Source: Paenibacillaceae bacterium GAS479
Lineage (GTDB): Bacteria; Bacillota; Bacilli; Paenibacillales; Paenibacillaceae
Length of the DNA stretch: 64,000 nucleotides
NCBI GenBank assembly: GCA_900105225.1
Contig: LT629764.1
Coordinates: 2,230,001 to 2,294,000 of the forward strand
Reading direction: 5' to 3'
This document shows, in pieces, positions 5,164 to 16,276 of the stretch. Position 1 is the first letter of the stretch; each line of letters starts with the position of its first letter. The notes under the pieces are model-generated. The model had not been told where the DNA came from, searched no databases, and was given only the letters and a program-made list of their open reading frames with translations. The position numbers were made by a program, and so were the translations under genes.

Positions 5164-6420
5164 TCAACGCGGACGCGCTAACTCAGCAGGAGGCACATGC
5201 GTGTAGGAACCGATCACTACATCAGGGAGCTCTTCGCGGAAGATCTGAAGCATTTGCTTCATGCCGTAGATTTCACCTTGCGCCTTTGGAATCAGGTTAA
5301 GGTAACTCTCTGGATCAATATTCAAATTACGCATCTGGATCAGGCGAAGCCCGGTCCGCCGCACAAAATCGATCATCGCCTCCATCTCCTCCTCACGGTC
5401 AGTGACCCCGGGGAAAATCAAATAGTTGATGGAGGTGTAGACGCCTTTGTCCGCCGCGTAGCGGAGAGACTTTTCGACATTTTTGAGCGTGTAGGCCCGC
5501 GGCTTGTAATAGGCATTGTAATGATCATCTAGCGCACTGATGGTGCTGACGCGCATGAGATCAAGCCCAGCATCAACGATCGCCCGCATAAAGTCGGTCA
5601 AACCAGCATTGGTATTGATATTGATATAACCTAGGTTCGTCTGCTGGCGGACGCGCTTCATTGCCTCAACGATGATCTTTGCTTGGGTGGAAGGCTCGCC
5701 TTCGCAACCTTGGCCGAAGCTAATGATGGATTCAGGCCGCTTGAGATGTTCCATCATAATTTCAACCAGTTCATCAACGGTCGGCTTGAAGTTCATACGC
5801 GTCTGCGGCGCAGGAAAAGCACTATCCTCCGGTTGCTCAGAAATACATCCGAAGCAGCCTGCATTGCAGGAATAGGAAACAGGAACGGCTCCTTCCCAAC
5901 GCTGCAAGAACGTATTGGATGCGGTCAGACATTCATAACCAAGGGCGCAATTGGAAAGATGCTTGTACAGCCGGTTATCGGGGTACTTCGCCAGCAGCTC
6001 TTCTACTTTGACGTTCAGCTCGCCGCGATCGCAGTTGAGCGGATTCCAGCGCTCCGGATCGTCGCATTGCTCTGCAGCTACGTAAAATCCACCGTCTTTC
6101 CAGACGACAGCGGTGTAGCCAAACAGCGGCAAAACGGCGGTGCGATCCGCTTTGACATAACCGGGAATCGCAAGTCGTGTATAGCCCTGCGGAAGAAGTG
6201 CTCCTACGGCTTGGTACGAGCCGGGCAACATCTCCATCTTACCGCTCGGGCTAATGCCGATCGGTCTGGTGCCGGGAAGGCCGACTAAGGTCGCACCCTC
6301 CGGTAAAGGAATCAGCTCATCCTCCATCAGCTCGATGACGATGTCCCCGCCGCGGCCGAGTCCGGTCCAGTCGGGATGGTCGAACAATTGGCCTTGTTCG
6401 TCGGCATAGACAAGATTCAT
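5164..6420 (-). CDS. Radical SAM protein of unassigned function
   Basis: A 418-residue cytosolic protein with a radical SAM iron-sulfur motif of the CX3CX2C type (C185, C189, C192, in SYSCNAGCFGC). The barrel follows (SFGQGCEGEPS as the glycine-rich SAM-binding strand, ININTNAGL, MRVSTISA). The first ~180 residues are a family-specific domain with further cysteines (C119, C130, C158, C164) that could hold a second cluster. I do not recognise the substrate. It starts 33 bases after the rho stop, so it is probably cotranscribed with rho, and rpmE follows after ~100 bases. Confidence 0.8.
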   Translation of the reverse strand: MNLVYADEQGQLFDHPDWTGLGRGGDIVIELMEDELIPLPEGATLVGLPGTRPIGISPSGKMEMLPGSYQAVGALLPQGYTRLAIPGYVKADRTAVLPLFGYTAVVWKDGGFYVAAEQCDDPERWNPLNCDRGELNVKVEELLAKYPDNRLYKHLSNCALGYECLTASNTFLQRWEGAVPVSYSCNAGCFGCISEQPEDSAFPAPQTRMNFKPTVDELVEIMMEHLKRPESIISFGQGCEGEPSTQAKIIVEAMKRVRQQTNLGYININTNAGLTDFMRAIVDAGLDLMRVSTISALDDHYNAYYKPRAYTLKNVEKSLRYAADKGVYTSINYLIFPGVTDREEEMEAMIDFVRRTGLRLIQMRNLNIDPESYLNLIPKAQGEIYGMKQMLQIFREELPDVVIGSYTHVPPAELARPR

Positions 6421-6453: not shown

Positions 6454-9255
6454 TTATTCCGTCGGCGAGGTTTTGGACCGCGCCGGGCGGCGAGTCGATG
6501 TCGCAGGCTTAGCCGCGTCATCGGTAGTAGTTGTGGCGGTCGGCTTGCTAGCCGGACGGCCGCGCTTTGGCGGCGCAGCCTCGGCGGTCGGCGCTTCAGT
6601 CGGCGTAGCCGACTGCGCTGTTGGCACGGAAGCCGTTGACGCTGCCGATGGGCGACCGCGTTTTGGCGGCGCTGCTTCAACAATCGGCGCTTCAGTCGGC
6701 TTAGCCGACTGCGCTGTTGGCACGGAAGCCGTTGACGCTGCCGATGGGCGGCCGCGTTTTGCCGGCGCTGCTTCAACAGTCGGCGCTTCAGTCGGCTTAG
6801 CCGACTGCGCTGTTGACGCGGAAGCCGCTGACGCTGCTGACGGACGGCCGCGTTTTGCCGGCGCTGCCTCAGCAGTCAGCGCTTCAGCCGGCTTAGCCGA
6901 CTGCGCTGTTGACGCGGAAGCCGTCGACGCTGCGGCTGGACGGCCGCGTTTTGCCGGCGCTGCCTCAGCAGTCAGCGCTTCAGCCGGCGTAACCGACTGC
7001 GCTGTTGACGCGGAAGCCGTTGACGCTGCCGATGGACGGCCGCGTTTTGCCGGCTCTGCCTCAGCGGTCGGCGCTTCAGTCGGCTTAGCCGACTGCGCTG
7101 TTGACGCGGAGGCCGTTGACGCTGCCGCTGGACGGCCGCGTTTTGCCGGCGCTGCCTCAGCAGTCGGCGCTTCAGTCGGCTTAGCCGACTGCGCTGTTGG
7201 CACGGAAGCCGTGGACGCTGCGGCTGGACGGCCGCGTTTTGCCGGCTCTGCCTCAGCGGTCGACGCTTCAGTCGGCGTAACCGACTGCGCTGTTGGCGCA
7301 GAGGCCGTTGCCTGCGGTGCAGGCAACGCAGCGGCGCCCGCACTGGCGGCTTCGCCTGCGCGCTGCTGCAGCTGCTCCGCCGCAGCGGCGCTTACCGCCG
7401 CTGTCGGCCGCGCCTCGACAGCGCTCTCCGGCTGCGCAACTGGCGCAGCCGCCGTACCGGCTGATGCCGCCGGCTGGCGCTCGTCGGCTGAAGCCGGCTG
7501 CACCGGCGGCTGAGCGTCGCCGGTGCTAGGGCGTGGCGCCGGGCTGTAGCTGCCCGGTCGCATGCTGCCCCCTACTGGGCGAGTCGCACCAGTCGAGGAA
7601 GGCCGGCCCAGCGGCCGTTGGCCGGAAGTTGGCCGGCTGCTGCTATAGGAGCTGCTCTGCCCTGCTCGCTGCGAGCTATACCCATTTTCGCTGCGCGAGT
7701 ATCCAGTCCCGCTGTTGCTGCTGTTGCCACTATCGCTTCGTTGCGAGCTGTAGCCATTCTCGCTGCGCGTGGGCCCAGCACCATTACTAGTACTGCCGCT
7801 CGAGCTGTTCGCGCCAGCGATCTGAGCTGTGCCTCCATTGCCGGAGGAGTAGCTGCGGTAGCCGCTGCCTTGCGTGTTATTGTTGCGATAAGCAGCTGTA
7901 TTGGAAACAATCGGGCTGCCGCCGGCTGGCCCCTTCGGAGCTTGGTTGCCGCTCGAAGTTCCAGGTCTGCTGCCGCTGGATGGAGACGACAGAGCAGGCC
8001 GGTTGCCATTTTTGGATTCCAAGGTAGCCATGAATTCCACATTCGTCTTGGTCTCGCCAAGCTTACGGAGAAACCCGTCGACAAAGTCCGGCGAGTCATT
8101 CATATTTTTGCGGATGACCCAGATTTTATCCAGCTCTTCTTTTGTCAGCAACAGATCCTCCCGGCGCGTGCCGGAACGGCGTATATCCATGGCCGGGAAA
8201 ATCCGGCGTTCGGCCAGCTTGCGGTCCAAATGCAGCTCCATGTTGCCCGTGCCCTTGAATTCTTCATAAATGATGTCATCCATACGCGAACCCGTATCGA
8301 TCAGTGCAGTTGCCAGAATGGTCAGGCTGCCGCCTTCCTCGATATTACGAGCTGAACCAAAAAAGCGCTTCGGACGATGGAACGCCGCGGGATCAATACC
8401 ACCACTCAGCGTCCGTCCAGACGGAGGAATGACTAAATTATAAGCTCGCGCCAAACGAGTGATACTGTCCAGCAGGATGACAACATCCTTCTTGTGCTCA
8501 ACCATGCGCAGTGCTCTCTCAAGCACAAGCTCTGCAACCTTGATATGATTTTCCGGTACTTCATCAAAGGTAGACGCTACAACCTCTCCCCTGACAGAGC
8601 GGGACATGTCCGTTACTTCCTCCGGCCGCTCGTCGATAAGCAGTACGAATAGCTCGATTTCCGGGTTGTTTTCAGAGATGCTATTGGCAATTTCCTTCAA
8701 CAGCAATGTTTTGCCTGCTTTGGGAGGAGCCACAATCAGTCCCCGCTGGCCAAGACCAACCGGAGCGAGCAGATCCATAATCCGAGTAGAAAGACGACCA
8801 GGTGTCGTTTCGAGAACAAGCTTCTTTTGCGGGAAGAGAGGGGTCAGCGCCGGGAAATGCAATCGCTCAGCAGCCGTTTCTGGGCTCATACCGTTAACTG
8901 CATTGACTTGCAAAAGGCCGAAGTAACGCTCGTTTTCTTTAGGAGGACGGCATTTCCCCGATACGAGGTCGCCGCTTCTAAGATCGAATCTACGGATTTG
9001 GGAAGCCGAGATATAAATATCTTCATTACTAGGCAAATAATTAATCGGACGCAAAAATCCAAAACCTTCTGGCAGGATGTCCAAAATTCCCTGCATGAAC
9101 AACAGCCCGCCACGCTCCGCTTGGGCGCGGAGAACAGCAAAAATCAATTCTCTTTTTCTCATCTGATTAAAGCTCGGTACCTCGAACTGCTTCGCGAGCT
9201 TATACAGATCATTCAATGACATTACTTCCAGATCAGCGATCTGAAATTCGCTCAT
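6454..9255 (-). CDS. rho: Transcription termination factor Rho with long C-terminal AT-hook-like tail
   Basis: Residues 1-416 are an ordinary Rho: N-terminal helix bundle, cold-shock RNA-binding domain (about 50-120, with EGFGFLR), Walker A (APPKAGKT, 176-183), Walker B ([10 protein letters not shown]), Q-loop and R-loop ([20 protein letters not shown]). Rho is a hexameric RNA helicase that ends transcripts. Usual length is 420-430 residues; this one is 933. Residues ~417-600 are Ser/Asn/Gly/Tyr-rich and low complexity ([21 protein letters not shown]), and ~600-670 are Ala/Pro/Gln-rich. Residues ~674-903 are a 32-residue repeat each carrying KRGRP, the core of an AT-hook; I count eight. The end is basic ([14 protein letters not shown]). 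The frame is open throughout. The start ATG follows GTGGTGAG. The tail is probably disordered; DNA binding by the KRGRP motifs is inference. Confidence 0.95.
6550..7280. repeat. 96-bp tandem repeat coding for the Rho tail
   Basis: A 96-bp unit, for example GGCGCTTCAGTCGGC at 6591 and again at 6687, recurs across the 3' half of rho and encodes the 32-residue KRGRP units. Copies differ by several substitutions, so the array is not freshly amplified. The period is a multiple of three, so copy-number change would keep the frame. Confidence 0.85.
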
Positions 9256-9568: not shown

Positions 9569-10822
9569 TCATTCATTCTCGCGCCAAACATCAGCACCGA
9601 GTCGGCGTAAATTCTCAACCAGGTTATCATACCCACGATCGATATACTCCACACCTGTAATTTCCGTAATGCCTTCGGTCACAGTGAGCCCAGCAACTAC
9701 CAATGAAGCTCCAGCGCGCAGGTCGGCTGCTCTGACCTTAGCCGCATTCAGCGAGCTGCCTTCAATGATGGCAGAGCGGCCTTCAACACGAATGTTGGCG
9801 CCCATGCGGATTAATTCCGGAACATGCTTGAAGCGGTTGCTGTACACATAGTCCGTGAGAATACTTACTCCGTTAGCCTGCGTCAGCAGGCTGGTCATCG
9901 GAGATTGCAAGTCGGTCGCAAATCCGGGATAAACAAGCGCGCGAACATCGATCGGCTCATAAACAGGAGCACCGATGATGCGGATGGATTCATCCATCTC
10001 GATGACCTTGACGCCCATTTCTAGAAGCTTGGCGCTCATTGCCTCCATATGCTTCGGAATGACGCCATCGATGAGCACGTCGCCCCGAGTTGCTGCAGCG
10101 GCAATCATATACGTACCAGCTTGAATCCGGTCTGGAATAATCGAATGACGACAGCCATGCATGCTGTCCACACCTTCGATTCGGATCGTCTCCGTTCCAG
10201 CACCTTTTATTCTAGCACCCATGGCGTTAAGCAATGTGGCCACATCTATGATTTCAGGCTCTTTAGCCGCGTTCTCAATGGTCGTTATGCCTTTGGCGCG
10301 TGACGCCGCTAACATAATATTGATGGTCGCGCCTACGCTGACCACGTCTAGATAAATCTTAGCACCGCGAAGCTCGCGGGCTGAGATACGAATTGAACCA
10401 TGATCGTTGGACACTTCGGCTCCTAAAGCTTCGAAGCCTTTAATATGCTGGTCAATCGGACGGGGCTCGAAATTGCAGCCGCCAGGCAATCCAATAACCG
10501 CTTCACCGAAGCGACCTAGCAGCGCCCCCATTAAATAATAGGAAGCTCTCAACAATTTAACTTTGCCGTCGGGCATAGGGGCTGAGACCAGACGCGATGG
10601 ATCGATGCGCATGGTATCTCCACTCCAAGACACGCCTGCACCAAGCTGCTCCAAAATTTCACCGTACACCGCAACGTCGCTAAGCTGCGGAAGGTTGTCC
10701 AGAACAACTTCCGATTCAGCCAGGATGGCTGCCGGTAACAGTGCGACTGCGCTGTTTTTGGCGCCGCTGATTTGAACCGTGCCTCGTAGCGGCCGTCCGC
10801 CACGAACCATTAATTTCTCCAT
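9569..10822 (-). CDS. murA: UDP-N-acetylglucosamine 1-carboxyvinyltransferase
   Basis: MurA transfers enolpyruvate from PEP to UDP-GlcNAc, the first committed step of peptidoglycan synthesis, in the cytosol. Seen: the catalytic KN pair near the start ([14 protein letters not shown]) and the PEP-binding cysteine loop ([11 protein letters not shown]; Cys is the fosfomycin target). I chose the ATG at 10822 (MEKLMVRGG), giving 417 residues as in the family, with GGGGAGG upstream. The gene order spo0F-murA-rho matches the second copy (murAB/murZ) of B. subtilis. An extended -10 promoter lies about 195 bases upstream. Confidence 0.95.
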
Positions 10823-11016
10823 TGATGCGGTATCCTCCCCGGAAAAAACAGGTATAGTGCCGCTATGCGGCTTACCTGCGGCTGAAAATAACGCAGCGCG
10901 CACCGGCAATCCGAAAGAGAGGGCGCGCGCTCATTATCTTGGTTCGAAAGGAGAAGGCTGCCAGTCGTAAGACTGCAGTCTTCGCTAAAGGAAAAGTAGC
11001 TTGTTCATTCTGAGCC

Positions 11017-11084: not shown

Positions 11085-11109
11085 AAAAAAAGGTCCTGCT
11101 CTCAGGACC
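11085..11109 (-). terminator. spo0F terminator overlapping its stop codon
   Basis: On the minus strand GGTCCTG-AGAG-CAGGACC is followed by seven U residues. The TGA of spo0F (11104-11102) lies in the 5' arm and loop of the hairpin. Confidence 0.85.
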
Positions 11110-11503
11110 CGATTGCGTATTTGCTATTGTTCTCTCCATCACGTCGCAGCTGCATGTTGACGGCAAGACGCATTTCGTCGATATCGAACGGCTTGGTAAA
11201 ATGCATAACCGCTCCTAAATCCGTTGCTTCCTTGATCATATCGAGCTCACCATACGCCATCATCATAATAACCTTAATGCTGCGATCGATTGCCTTGACA
11301 TGCTTGAGAATCTCAAGCCCATCCATGCCGGGAATCTTCATGTCCAGCAGTACCAGATCCGGACTTTCATTACGGACAATTTCCAGAGCCAGCTTGCCGT
11401 TGGAAGCTTGGAAGGTCGTGTATCCCTCGCTCGTAAATACCTCCATTAGGAGAACGCGTATTCCATTCTGGTCATCTACGATGAGCACCTTTTTCATGTC
11501 CAA
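11102..11503 (-). CDS. spo0F: Spo0F, sporulation phosphorelay response regulator
   Basis: A single-domain receiver that passes phosphate from sensor kinases to Spo0B and thence Spo0A. Seen: acidic pocket (VDD near the start), phospho-acceptor Asp in [10 protein letters not shown], and the conserved Lys in HFTKPFD; no output domain. Position next to pyrG is the classical spo0F location. I start at the TTG at 11503 because GGGAGG lies 8 bases upstream; the ATG two codons later would leave a 14-base gap. The usual fbaA neighbour is missing here. Confidence 0.92.
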
Positions 11504-11845: not shown

Positions 11846-13477
<1,632 letters not shown>

Positions 13478-13834: not shown

Positions 13835-16276
13835 TTATGGGTTTAAATGGCGGGCGAGGAACTTCTCCAAGGCACGATAGAAATCAAGCTGATTTTCCAA
13901 ATTGGCAAAACCATGGCCTTCATCCAGTTTCAGCATATAAGGCACATCAACGCCTCTTGCGTTCAGCGCATTGACGATTTGATCCGACTCGGCCTGTTTG
14001 ACGCGAGGATCATTGGCACCTTGAACAACAAACAGGGGCGCCTTGATTGTATCAACGGAGAACAGCGGCGAGATTTCAGTCAGAAGCTCCTTCTCTTTGA
14101 CAGGATCGCCTATACGCTGGTACATCATCGTACGCTGGGATTCCCAGTAAGCGGGCAATGAGTCAAGCAGCGTGAACAAGTTGGAAGGACCGACGTAGCT
14201 TACTCCCGCTGCGTATACATCAGGTGTGTAAGCTAAACCAGCGAGCGCAGCATAACCTCCGTATGAAGTTCCGTATATGGCTACCCGCTCTTTATCCGCA
14301 ATTCCTTCCTGAACGAGCCAATTGACGCCATCTGTTAGGTCATTTTGCATCGCTTTGCCCCATTGCTTGTTGCCTGCATCCAGGAACTCTTTGCCGTATC
14401 CAGTTGAACCGCGGAAGTTCACCTGCAGCACCGCGTAACCTCTGCTGGCCAAAAACTGGACTTCCGGATTATAACCCCATACATCGCGAGCCCATGGGCC
14501 TCCGTGCGGATTCACAATAAGAGGAAGGTTTTTCGGATCGGCACCTTTAGGAAGGGTCAGGTAGCCATTAAGTGTCATTCCGTCTCTTGTTTTATAAGAA
14601 ATCGGCTTCATATCGGCTAACTTGTTCTCGTCCAGCCAGCCAGTCGACTCCGAGATTTTCTCCAGCGATCCCGACTTCGTATCGTAAATGTAGTTGATAC
14701 CGCCATTTTTATCGCTGTAGGCCGTAAATTGAACTTTGCCGTTTTTGTCCGGGACGTTCAGGGAAATTTCTTTGCCAGGCACTTTAGCCCGAAGAGTAAC
14801 GTACAGCTGCTCGAACTCCGGATCAAAGAAGGAATAGTTCACTTTATCCGTCATATAAACAGCAGCCGCGATGGTTTGCTTTTGTACGGATGGAATAATG
14901 CCGGCAACGTCAACTTCTTTATTTTCAAAAATCGTTTTAACGACTTTTTTGGCAACCGGATCATATTCCTCGATCGCCACTTTGTCCCGCCCGATGTTTG
15001 AAGCCACATACAGATTTTTGTTATCAAAAGTAAACATGACTGGATTGAAGCTATCGCCAAGCTTCGTATCCATCAGAGGCTTGAATGGTTGGTCTTCCGT
15101 ATCGCGGTAAAGTAAGGACGATACATTGCCATCACTTGAAATCGCGATACGCAGCTTGCCAGCGTTGTCAGTCATCCAACCGGTAATGTTTCCAGGGTTT
15201 TCAGCAACCAATTTCGTCGCACCTGTACGTATGTTGATCCGGTATACATCAAATATGCGGGCGTCCCGCTTGTTCATGCCGACAAGCAGTTCATCGGGAA
15301 TTCCAGGCAGCGCATCAATGATCATCGCCGTTGTATTTTCGTAAGGGGTCAAATTGCGCTGCTCTTTGCCATCCAGATTAACGGCGAACAGCTGATAGTT
15401 TTCATCGCCCCCAGTGTCTCTCGCATAAATCAGCCGATCATTGGCTGCCCATGCGAATCCGGCAACGCTGCGTTCCTTTTCACTAGTGATTCGGACTCCG
15501 TTGTTCTCACCGACTTTTTTGACGAAAATATTCAATCGATTCTCCCACATGCTGAGGTACGCAATATGGGTATTATCAGGGGATAGACTGAATTGAAGCT
15601 GATCAGCAGGCCGGAAAATATCTTCCAGCGGAATAGCACCCGTAGGGGCTACGCCCAGCCCAAGAGCTTGATAGAGCGAGCCGGCGAATTCCGCACGCGT
15701 AACCGGCCCTTTAGGAGCGAACTTTGTGCTGCTAAGAATAAAATGCTGCTTAAGACGGATCGCATCCTCAAGATGAGCCGGGGCAATCGACTTTTGATCC
15801 TCGTATACGACCTGAATATCATTATCTCCAAGCTTGAAAGAGCGGGTCAGCAGCGAAGCCATCTGCTGGCGGGTCAGCGGCGCGGCAGGCATAAAGCCGT
15901 TTGCCCCTCCCTTGATGATGCCTCGCTCTTTAAGAGCAGCTACAGCAGCTGCAACGTCCCCGTCTTGCACTAGATCTGCAAAGCCGCTTGAAACGGCTGT
16001 TGCTTCAAGCTTCAGTGCGCGTTGCAGCACTAATGCTGCCTCAGCGCGTGTGATAGGCTCAAGCGGCGCGTTCATGCCGTCTTTTATCCCATCTATGTAT
16101 CCCAATTGCCGGAGCGCTTCAATCGCTTTATTTTCAAATTCAGCGGAGACGCTTCCAGCGGCCTGAATCGGTAAAGCAGCTACAGGTGCGGGCGGCATTG
16201 CGGTGAGCAATAAAGCCAATGCAATGACCGCGGCACCCGTTTTACGCTTGACTTGCTTGAACATTAACCTTTCCAA
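13835..16276 (-). CDS. SLH-anchored S9 (prolyl oligopeptidase family) peptidase
   Basis: An 813-residue exported serine peptidase. Order of domains: signal peptide (KRKTGAAVIALALLLTA); three S-layer homology domains at about 46-90, 106-150 and 165-210 (each with an ITRAE/LTRQQ/VTRAE motif), which would tether it to secondary cell-wall polymer; a WD40/TolB-like beta-propeller of ~350 residues; then a C-terminal alpha/beta hydrolase with GTSYGGYAA (Ser ~667), GANDPRV (Asp ~755) and DEGHGF (His ~787). Such enzymes cleave acyl- or prolyl-peptides. TTG at 16276 is chosen because AGGAGG lies 8 bases upstream; the ATG four codons on is possible. Confidence 0.9.
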   Translation of the reverse strand: MERLMFKQVKRKTGAAVIALALLLTAMPPAPVAALPIQAAGSVSAEFENKAIEALRQLGYIDGIKDGMNAPLEPITRAEAALVLQRALKLEATAVSSGFADLVQDGDVAAAVAALKERGIIKGGANGFMPAAPLTRQQMASLLTRSFKLGDNDIQVVYEDQKSIAPAHLEDAIRLKQHFILSSTKFAPKGPVTRAEFAGSLYQALGLGVAPTGAIPLEDIFRPADQLQFSLSPDNTHIAYLSMWENRLNIFVKKVGENNGVRITSEKERSVAGFAWAANDRLIYARDTGGDENYQLFAVNLDGKEQRNLTPYENTTAMIIDALPGIPDELLVGMNKRDARIFDVYRINIRTGATKLVAENPGNITGWMTDNAGKLRIAISSDGNVSSLLYRDTEDQPFKPLMDTKLGDSFNPVMFTFDNKNLYVASNIGRDKVAIEEYDPVAKKVVKTIFENKEVDVAGIIPSVQKQTIAAAVYMTDKVNYSFFDPEFEQLYVTLRAKVPGKEISLNVPDKNGKVQFTAYSDKNGGINYIYDTKSGSLEKISESTGWLDENKLADMKPISYKTRDGMTLNGYLTLPKGADPKNLPLIVNPHGGPWARDVWGYNPEVQFLASRGYAVLQVNFRGSTGYGKEFLDAGNKQWGKAMQNDLTDGVNWLVQEGIADKERVAIYGTSYGGYAALAGLAYTPDVYAAGVSYVGPSNLFTLLDSLPAYWESQRTMMYQRIGDPVKEKELLTEISPLFSVDTIKAPLFVVQGANDPRVKQAESDQIVNALNARGVDVPYMLKLDEGHGFANLENQLDFYRALEKFLARHLNP

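Follow-up and report, generated by a model that had tools for sequence, protein, structure and literature searches.

A long C-terminal tail on transcription termination factor Rho of Paenibacillaceae bacterium GAS479, a candidate multivalent nucleic-acid-binding arm

We analyzed a 64,000-nucleotide stretch of the genome of Paenibacillaceae bacterium GAS479 (contig LT629764.1, positions 2,230,001 to 2,294,000), referred to here as the window; all coordinates are positions within it. One gene in the window encodes transcription termination factor Rho with a normal core, continued in the same open frame by a long C-terminal tail (Table 1). In our best reading, which draws on analogy with known Rho proteins, the tail would have evolved independently as a C-terminal equivalent of the disordered N-terminal insertions found in Bacteroides and actinobacterial Rho: an arm that binds nucleic acid at many points, probably promotes condensation and, in GAS479, may also hold AT-rich DNA.

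Table 1. Features of the rho gene and its tail in the window
Feature	Position	Strand	Remark
rho gene	6454..9255	minus	933 codons and stop; the only Rho of the genome above the family cut-off
Rho core, residues 1-412	8020..9255	minus	Rho_N, RNA-binding domain, ATPase
C-terminal tail, residues 413-933 and stop	6454..8019	minus	521 residues
Proximal segment, residues 413-620 (first 40%)	7396..8019	minus	SGNQ 49%
Conserved 14-residue motif, residues 444-457	7885..7926	minus	12-residue part in 7/8 genus members
Ala-rich stretch preceding the repeat array, residues 621-645	7321..7395	minus	
Eight 32-residue repeats, each ending in KRGRP, residues 646-901	6553..7320	minus	
Terminal basic motif RRPAR, residues 922-926	6478..6492	minus	counterpart of the RRxxR-type motif of the family's short tails

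The product of positions 6454-9255 is Rho, as judged from a full-length equivalog match in its sequence. The NCBIfam rho model TIGR00767 gave 656.5 bits against a cut-off of 509.45, covering residues 5-413 of the protein and positions 2-414 of the 415-position profile, and the Rho_N, Rho_RNA_bind and ATP-synt_ab domains all fell within the same residues as this equivalog. According to the Pfam domain positions, Rho_N (residues 8-50) and the RNA-binding domain (Rho_RNA_bind, residues 54-126) adjoin directly, and no N-terminal insertion was found between them. The GAS479 genome is one 5.52-Mb contig, in which the rho model had four matches, one of them above the cut-off. The original prediction described a single open frame with a complete, normal core up to about residue 416 and 517 further residues. 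We recovered the frame (933 aa) and the normal core but placed the core end at residue 412, which leaves 521 residues for the tail; the prediction was thus right in substance and a few residues off.

Genes of the murA, spo0F and pyrG type lie upstream of rho in Bacillota. A neighbourhood of this type was present in the window: Pfam identified an EPSP-synthase family gene at 9569-10909 and a response regulator at 11102-11503, and a CTP-synthase-like frame at 11846-13447 was recognized by eye. On the other side, a radical-SAM gene (5164-6420, minus strand) begins 33 bases past the rho stop and is apparently followed by an rpmE-like frame, also recognized by eye. Positions 13835-16276 (minus strand) encode an 813-aa protein combining S-layer-homology and prolyl oligopeptidase.

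The tail has a net charge of +22, a pI of 10.5 and an ILVFWMC content of 4.4%. The expected mass of Rho is about 97 kDa with the tail and about 46 kDa without it. Its proximal segment contains all eight tail tyrosines (residues 456-570), 16 Arg and 2 Lys, with no pair of basic residues within two residues of each other. The eight predicted 32-residue KRGRP repeats were confirmed. KRGRP occurs at residues 673, 705, 737, 769, 801, 833, 865 and 897, a spacing of exactly 32, and its minus-strand codons start at 7239, 7143, 7047, 6951, 6855, 6759, 6663 and 6567. Tandem Repeats Finder returned a period of 96, 7.9 copies and 91% matches for the array, in agreement with eight evenly spaced units. A second copy of the tail was sought in the GAS479 genome and not found; every match fell on the rho gene, on one strand or the other. 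On the plus strand, an antisense frame of 346 aa (6473-7513) overlies the tail and probably does no more than mirror the GC-rich repeats. The tail is probably disordered, as judged solely from its composition. AlphaFold2, run on a 23-sequence alignment, placed no helix or strand past residue 416, with a mean pLDDT of 44.3 in a model in which the known core was poorly reproduced as well. Among the 14 PDB sequences matched at E ≤ 1e-20, no solved Rho had more than 11 residues past the matched part.

Comparison with related genomes identified the tail as coding sequence on which purifying selection imposes a moderate constraint. In eight genome pairs, which share members and include some with high synonymous distances, dN/dS was 0.11-0.48 in the tail halves versus 0.008-0.031 in the cores. 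In each of the eight pairs, both halves of the tail had a higher synonymous than nonsynonymous rate per site. This excess, together with a long frame in all eight genomes compared from the genus to which GAS479 belongs, indicates that the tail is no assembly artefact. In the pair of GAS479 and Paenibacillus herberti (G000/G003), the distal synonymous distance (0.33) was larger than that of the core (0.14), so the repeat units were perhaps aligned out of register. Within the arrays of these two genomes, four of the five KRGRP codons varied synonymously and none of the five residues changed, whereas spacer residues changed at 15/27 and 16/27 positions, respectively (Fisher p = 0.008 and 0.007, with units anchored on KRGRP itself, so that degenerate units outside the run would escape). 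One spacing in the P. herberti array was 47.

At the nucleotide level, each of the eight 96-bp units was predicted to form a short hairpin (AGTCGGC-TAA-GCCGACT type, with G-U pairs in part of the units) where the codons read QSAKPT or QSVTPT. This hairpin is a possible cause of repeat growth or a possible RNA element. The repeats might then act as RNA or DNA, for example as a hairpin array or as a Rho site on the gene's own mRNA, rather than as protein, and the coding strand of the array does carry more C (0.362) than G (0.327). This is nevertheless very hard to credit, as the frame is kept, the synonymous rate lies above the nonsynonymous rate, and the repeat array was matched in only 2 of the 98 genomes searched.

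The original prediction had proposed mapping the extension by comparing Rho across the Paenibacillaceae. This comparison located long tails in the whole genus of GAS479 and in part of the genus containing Cohnella (g12; hereafter the Cohnella group). All eight genomes compared from the GAS479 genus have an open Rho frame, of 588-961 aa; the shortest, that of G004 (588 aa), is truncated where its contig stops. Across the family, 148 genomes from 19 genera were sampled, and 14 of them had frames of at least 550 aa, namely these eight and 6 of the 14 Cohnella-group genomes sampled. Frames of this length were present in 16 of 37 Cohnella-group genomes; in four of the 16 (G055, G164, G169 and G170) the contig stops within the tail. 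Tail sequence was read in all 24 long-frame genomes. Other frames in the family reached at most 529 aa; in those examined, the extra length lay upstream of the core and the tails comprised about 20-50 residues.

At the level of the order, 149 genomes were sampled, of which 148 have Rho, and the sole frame of at least 550 aa outside the genus was that of G175, which has a 167-residue C-terminal tail. A Rho match was obtained in at least 181 of the 249 genomes of a phylum sample. Five long proteins compared from this sample (G278, G450, G324, G499 and G425) owe their length to the N-terminal side, which measures 243-586 residues back to the previous stop, and reach only 4-9 residues past the core; among the matches listed, G362 and G408 were also long and stood outside this five-protein comparison. 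N-terminal Rho extensions of this size were recorded for the loci L162-L166 of other Bacillota, and those of L162-L164 appeared by eye to be similar in Ala/Pro/Thr and Arg-patch composition.

Several Rho frames in the samples were irregular. Two of the 16 long Cohnella frames, in G153 (TAA) and G160 (TGA), have an in-frame stop inside the matched Rho region, and in G019 the Rho match ends at profile position 285 of 415 in a frame of 291 aa; these three genomes are rated 91-100% complete. The loci L152 and L139 (Cohnella kolymensis, G156) showed a short Rho tail with an odd hydrophobic end, perhaps resulting from a frame change. In L007 (G007), the tail frame breaks before the C-terminal end and enters the next gene, either through a sequencing error or in reality.

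We then considered whether the long tails go back to one gain or to several. In a Rho-core tree, the eight genus members formed one clade (100/99) and the 15 long Cohnella rows another (99/97), and all 31 Cohnella rows together formed a single clade (100/96). The Rho trees left out G153 and G163, and G158, whose contig ends 23 residues into a tail sharing a motif with G164, was labelled long by hand. A single long-tailed clade was not rejected by the Rho cores alone (AU p = 0.18). In an RpoB tree of 30 genomes, nine long-tailed Cohnella genomes formed one clade (99/96) inside Cohnella (100/99), and a single clade of long-tailed genomes was rejected (p = 2e-8); G175 was absent from both of these one-origin tests. 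Since the RpoB tree rejects a single clade, the long tails appear from these sequence comparisons to have been gained separately in the genus and in Cohnella, which is the better reading. P. herberti was the row nearest GAS479 in both the Rho and the RpoB trees. G002, which has an ambiguous place relative to the other seven genus members in the RpoB tree, lacks the conserved proximal motif and may have gained its tail with them or apart from them. An octapeptide present in tails of both groups, SYSSSRPT, was considered as a sign of homology and discarded, as the longest match between the tails was no better than that between shuffled tails (p = 0.33).

The tails of the two groups share a layout, which we compared over 18 complete long tails of the 24, leaving aside five cut by contig ends and one with a broken frame. 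The first 40% of these tails had an SGNQ fraction of 0.43-0.68, versus 0.09-0.36 later. It also contained 3-8 tyrosines; two of the 18 tails have a single tyrosine farther along, and the others none. Within the first 40%, Arg was nearly the sole basic residue (Lys 0-2). The later parts consisted of 38-63% Ala and Pro, along with Lys, Arg, Asp and Glu. ILVFWMC content was 1.5-5.9% across the 18 tails. Proximal basic residues tended to avoid one another (summed p = 2e-4 over 15 non-independent tails); taken individually, p fell below 0.05 in 2 of the 15, those of the close relatives GAS479 and P. herberti. Clustering of basic residues into patches was also considered as a universal feature and rejected: in the distal part it reached significance in just 4 of 19 tails, so such patches are not general.

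Within this variable sequence, short elements were conserved. The 12-residue proximal motif showed synonymous differences only among the seven genus members that carry it. In Cohnella, a 31-residue Arg/Tyr-rich block was invariant at six loci (L045, L145, L146, L148, L149 and L150) despite many synonymous changes, and the four carriers present in the Rho tree formed one clade. Furthermore, of the 137 distinct closed Rho proteins compared, with long or short tails, 135 carry a terminal RRxxR-type motif, sought as a loose pattern in the last 32 residues; this count includes one out-of-frame match in L007 and omits seven extra-family loci (L161-L165, L167 and L168). As long and short tails have this motif in common, the long tail appears to have expanded between the core and a terminal motif that was already there.

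Such short invariant elements, and an RRxxR-type motif shared by almost every Rho of the family that was compared, would also be expected if the 12-residue motif and the terminal motif docked onto another protein, for instance RNA polymerase or an elongation factor, with the low-complexity rest of the tail serving as a spacer. We consider this improbable: the elements are unlike between the genus and Cohnella, the repeat array would be left unexplained, and we know of no partner of the Rho tail.

Slippage in GC-rich genomes is another way for low-complexity tails to lengthen. The tail might accordingly be a weakly constrained product of slippage and biased mutation, of little function, which the C-terminus tolerates. 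The tandem copies are alike, each unit is hairpin-capable, and the complete unbroken long tails range widely in length, from 336 to 545 residues, as such growth would predict. Long tails also tend to occur at higher GC, with Spearman coefficients of 0.22 for core GC3 and 0.32 for locus GC (155 closed loci, some from the same genome, kinship ignored), and median GC3 in Cohnella was 0.773 at long versus 0.643 at short loci (16 each). This higher GC would suit a tail that assists Rho on structured RNA and, equally, growth driven by GC; the GC3 of GAS479 (0.547) speaks against both. Its tail is the second-longest of the genus, yet its GC3 is the lowest. Purifying selection across the tail, the segregation of tyrosine and Lys in both groups, and the elements kept invariant through synonymous change in seven of the eight genus members and at six Cohnella loci likewise argue against mere slippage, and we regard this explanation as unlikely.

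The original prediction read the KRGRP repeats as AT-hooks that may tether Rho to AT-rich DNA and so link termination to position in the nucleoid or to the silencing of AT-rich genes. Its premise was correct: RGRP is the core of the AT-hook, with bacterial precedents in Myxococcus xanthus CarD and in WhiB7 according to the portions of the sources available, and KRGRP is invariant in the array. As a general account of the tails, the reading was not supported. KRGRP was found in three of the eight genus members, with eight copies in GAS479, eight in P. herberti and one in G006; none was read in the other five, among which the G004 tail is cut and the G007 tail loses its frame toward the end. None of the 16 long Cohnella tails, four of which are cut, contained it. 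The Pfam AT_hook model (PF02178) scored the tail alone at 14.4 bits (E = 0.036), below its cut-off of 17.4, and at E ≤ 10 it matched 2 of 23 aligned Rho proteins, with a best score of 4.4.

The flanks of the motif bear on the same question. In the part of the source available, the WhiB7 hook KRPRGRPRKDAV has basic residues on both sides, and basic flanks of this kind on both sides of the GRP core were not found in the GAS479 tail. Its first seven repeats have basic residues before RGRP and none within 14 residues after it; the last repeat has one Lys after it (RGRPASKP), and the right side in the inner repeats is Ala/Ser. G006 carries PPKRGRPPGSTRKPR, which is nearer to a classical hook. When the genus members are ranked by core GC3, KRGRP occurs in three of the lower four (0.547, 0.562 and 0.635; G002, at 0.603, is without it), and the upper four all lack it, even though the KRGRP codons themselves are GC-rich.

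CarD binds AT-rich DNA through a C-terminal domain that is unfolded and comprises an acidic segment and four RGRP hooks, according to the available text (PMC4374960). That the Rho tail is a DNA-binding arm of this type is doubtful in our judgement. The precedent of an unfolded RGRP-repeat tail, the eight motifs in both GAS479 and P. herberti with synonymous changes only, the leaning toward low-GC3 members and the form found in G006 speak for it. The absence of the motif from most of the tails read, the Pfam score and the bare right flanks of the first seven repeats speak against it, and the eight copies look like tandem duplication of one motif. Judged by sequence, a tether to AT-rich DNA is possible in the GAS479 species and unsupported as the general role of the tail. 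A further elaboration, in which the 48 AT-hook-like motifs of a hexamer on flexible arms would bind AT-rich DNA and RNA together, strikes us as rather unlikely. It would concentrate termination at AT-rich genes, for example horizontally acquired ones, or in a nucleoid-bound Rho condensate, on an arm with an origin separate from that of the N-terminal insertions.

With moderate confidence, we propose instead that the tail may be a disordered, multivalent nucleic-acid-binding and self-associating C-terminal arm on an ordinary Rho, the disorder being read from composition and the function inferred throughout. Six tails per hexamer would bring together 48 KRGRP motifs and a net charge of about +130. 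The distal Ala/Pro/Glu/Lys/Arg segment would provide weak multivalent binding of RNA, and possibly DNA, while the proximal Ser/Gly/Tyr/Arg segment would mediate self-association; acting together, they would increase transcript capture by Rho and promote its condensation. In GAS479 and P. herberti, distal units would have been amplified into AT-hook-like KRGRP repeats. The proposal draws on the purifying selection, the similar layout in groups that stand apart in RpoB, the short conserved elements, the constancy of KRGRP beside changing spacers, and the published Rho insertions that bind RNA or condense with it. Counting against it are the small number of tails with distal basic clustering, the proximal spacing that is individually significant in two close relatives alone, the Rho cores, which permit one origin, the capacity of low-complexity tails to lengthen by slippage, the N-terminal position of the published parallels, and the stops inside the Rho region of G153 and G160.

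The original prediction had also stated that size variation in bacterial Rho usually lies in N-terminal or internal insertions, which is true of the published cases that we found, so far as the available text describes them. In the literature available to us, the disordered regions described for Rho are inserted on the N-terminal side, and Firmicutes are reported mostly to lack them (PMC10284900). The Bacillota relatives examined here add a comparable region at the opposite end, in at least two groups that are separate in RpoB. Among the open-access papers listed, we found no description of a C-terminal Rho extension or of an AT-hook Rho. The layout shared by separate groups provides a natural test of what Rho arms do. 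If the C-terminal arm condenses or binds RNA like the N-terminal ones, multivalency would be critical and position would not. The KRGRP array, in turn, raises the question of whether a bacterial terminator can grip DNA and RNA together. That similar tails appear to have arisen separately hints at a useful extra arm that grips nucleic acid or clusters Rho.

Among the closest known counterparts of the long tail are the short Rho tails of other Paenibacillaceae, which share its terminal RRxxR-type motif. The short tails are Gly/Ser/Thr-rich and mostly of about 20-50 residues, and those read lack both the KRGRP array and the long Ala/Pro-rich distal segment. M. xanthus CarD resembles GAS479 Rho in that a bacterial transcription protein bears a C-terminal domain with repeated RGRP motifs. 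CarD, however, is not a Rho, has four hooks and measured AT-rich DNA binding, and is described in the available text without mention of 32-residue tandem repeats (PMC4374960). The insertion in Rho of Mycobacterium tuberculosis and Micrococcus luteus is likewise a long, polar, Arg-rich extension, itself predicted to be disordered, and M. tuberculosis Rho, which bears it, migrated anomalously in gels. It differs from the GAS479 tail in being N-terminal and in its measured RNA binding; such actinobacterial insertions aid Rho on structured or GC-rich transcripts, and that of these two species is linked to structured or GC-rich RNA, according to the parts of the sources at hand (PMC8828861, PMC4167861).

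The Bacteroides protein BtRho offers the fullest comparison. In the accessible portions of its descriptions, BtRho condenses with RNA through short positive motifs in a largely unconserved disordered region, which has a prion-like part and a Lys/Glu-rich part, the latter holding the motifs that drive RNA-dependent condensation (PMC13269538, PMC10284900). Its condensation has been demonstrated, whereas the GAS479 tail is known from sequence only. The BtRho region is N-terminal, linking the helix bundle to the RNA-binding domain, and the GAS479 tail follows the ATPase domain, carries KRGRP repeats and does not match the BtRho region in Asn/Gln richness, so that the two are likened by description. 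Like the BtRho region, the GAS479 tail is a long low-complexity region in which composition is kept while length and sequence are not, with short conserved elements, and it contains ingredients analogous to the prion-like part and to the Lys/Glu-rich part with its short positive motifs.
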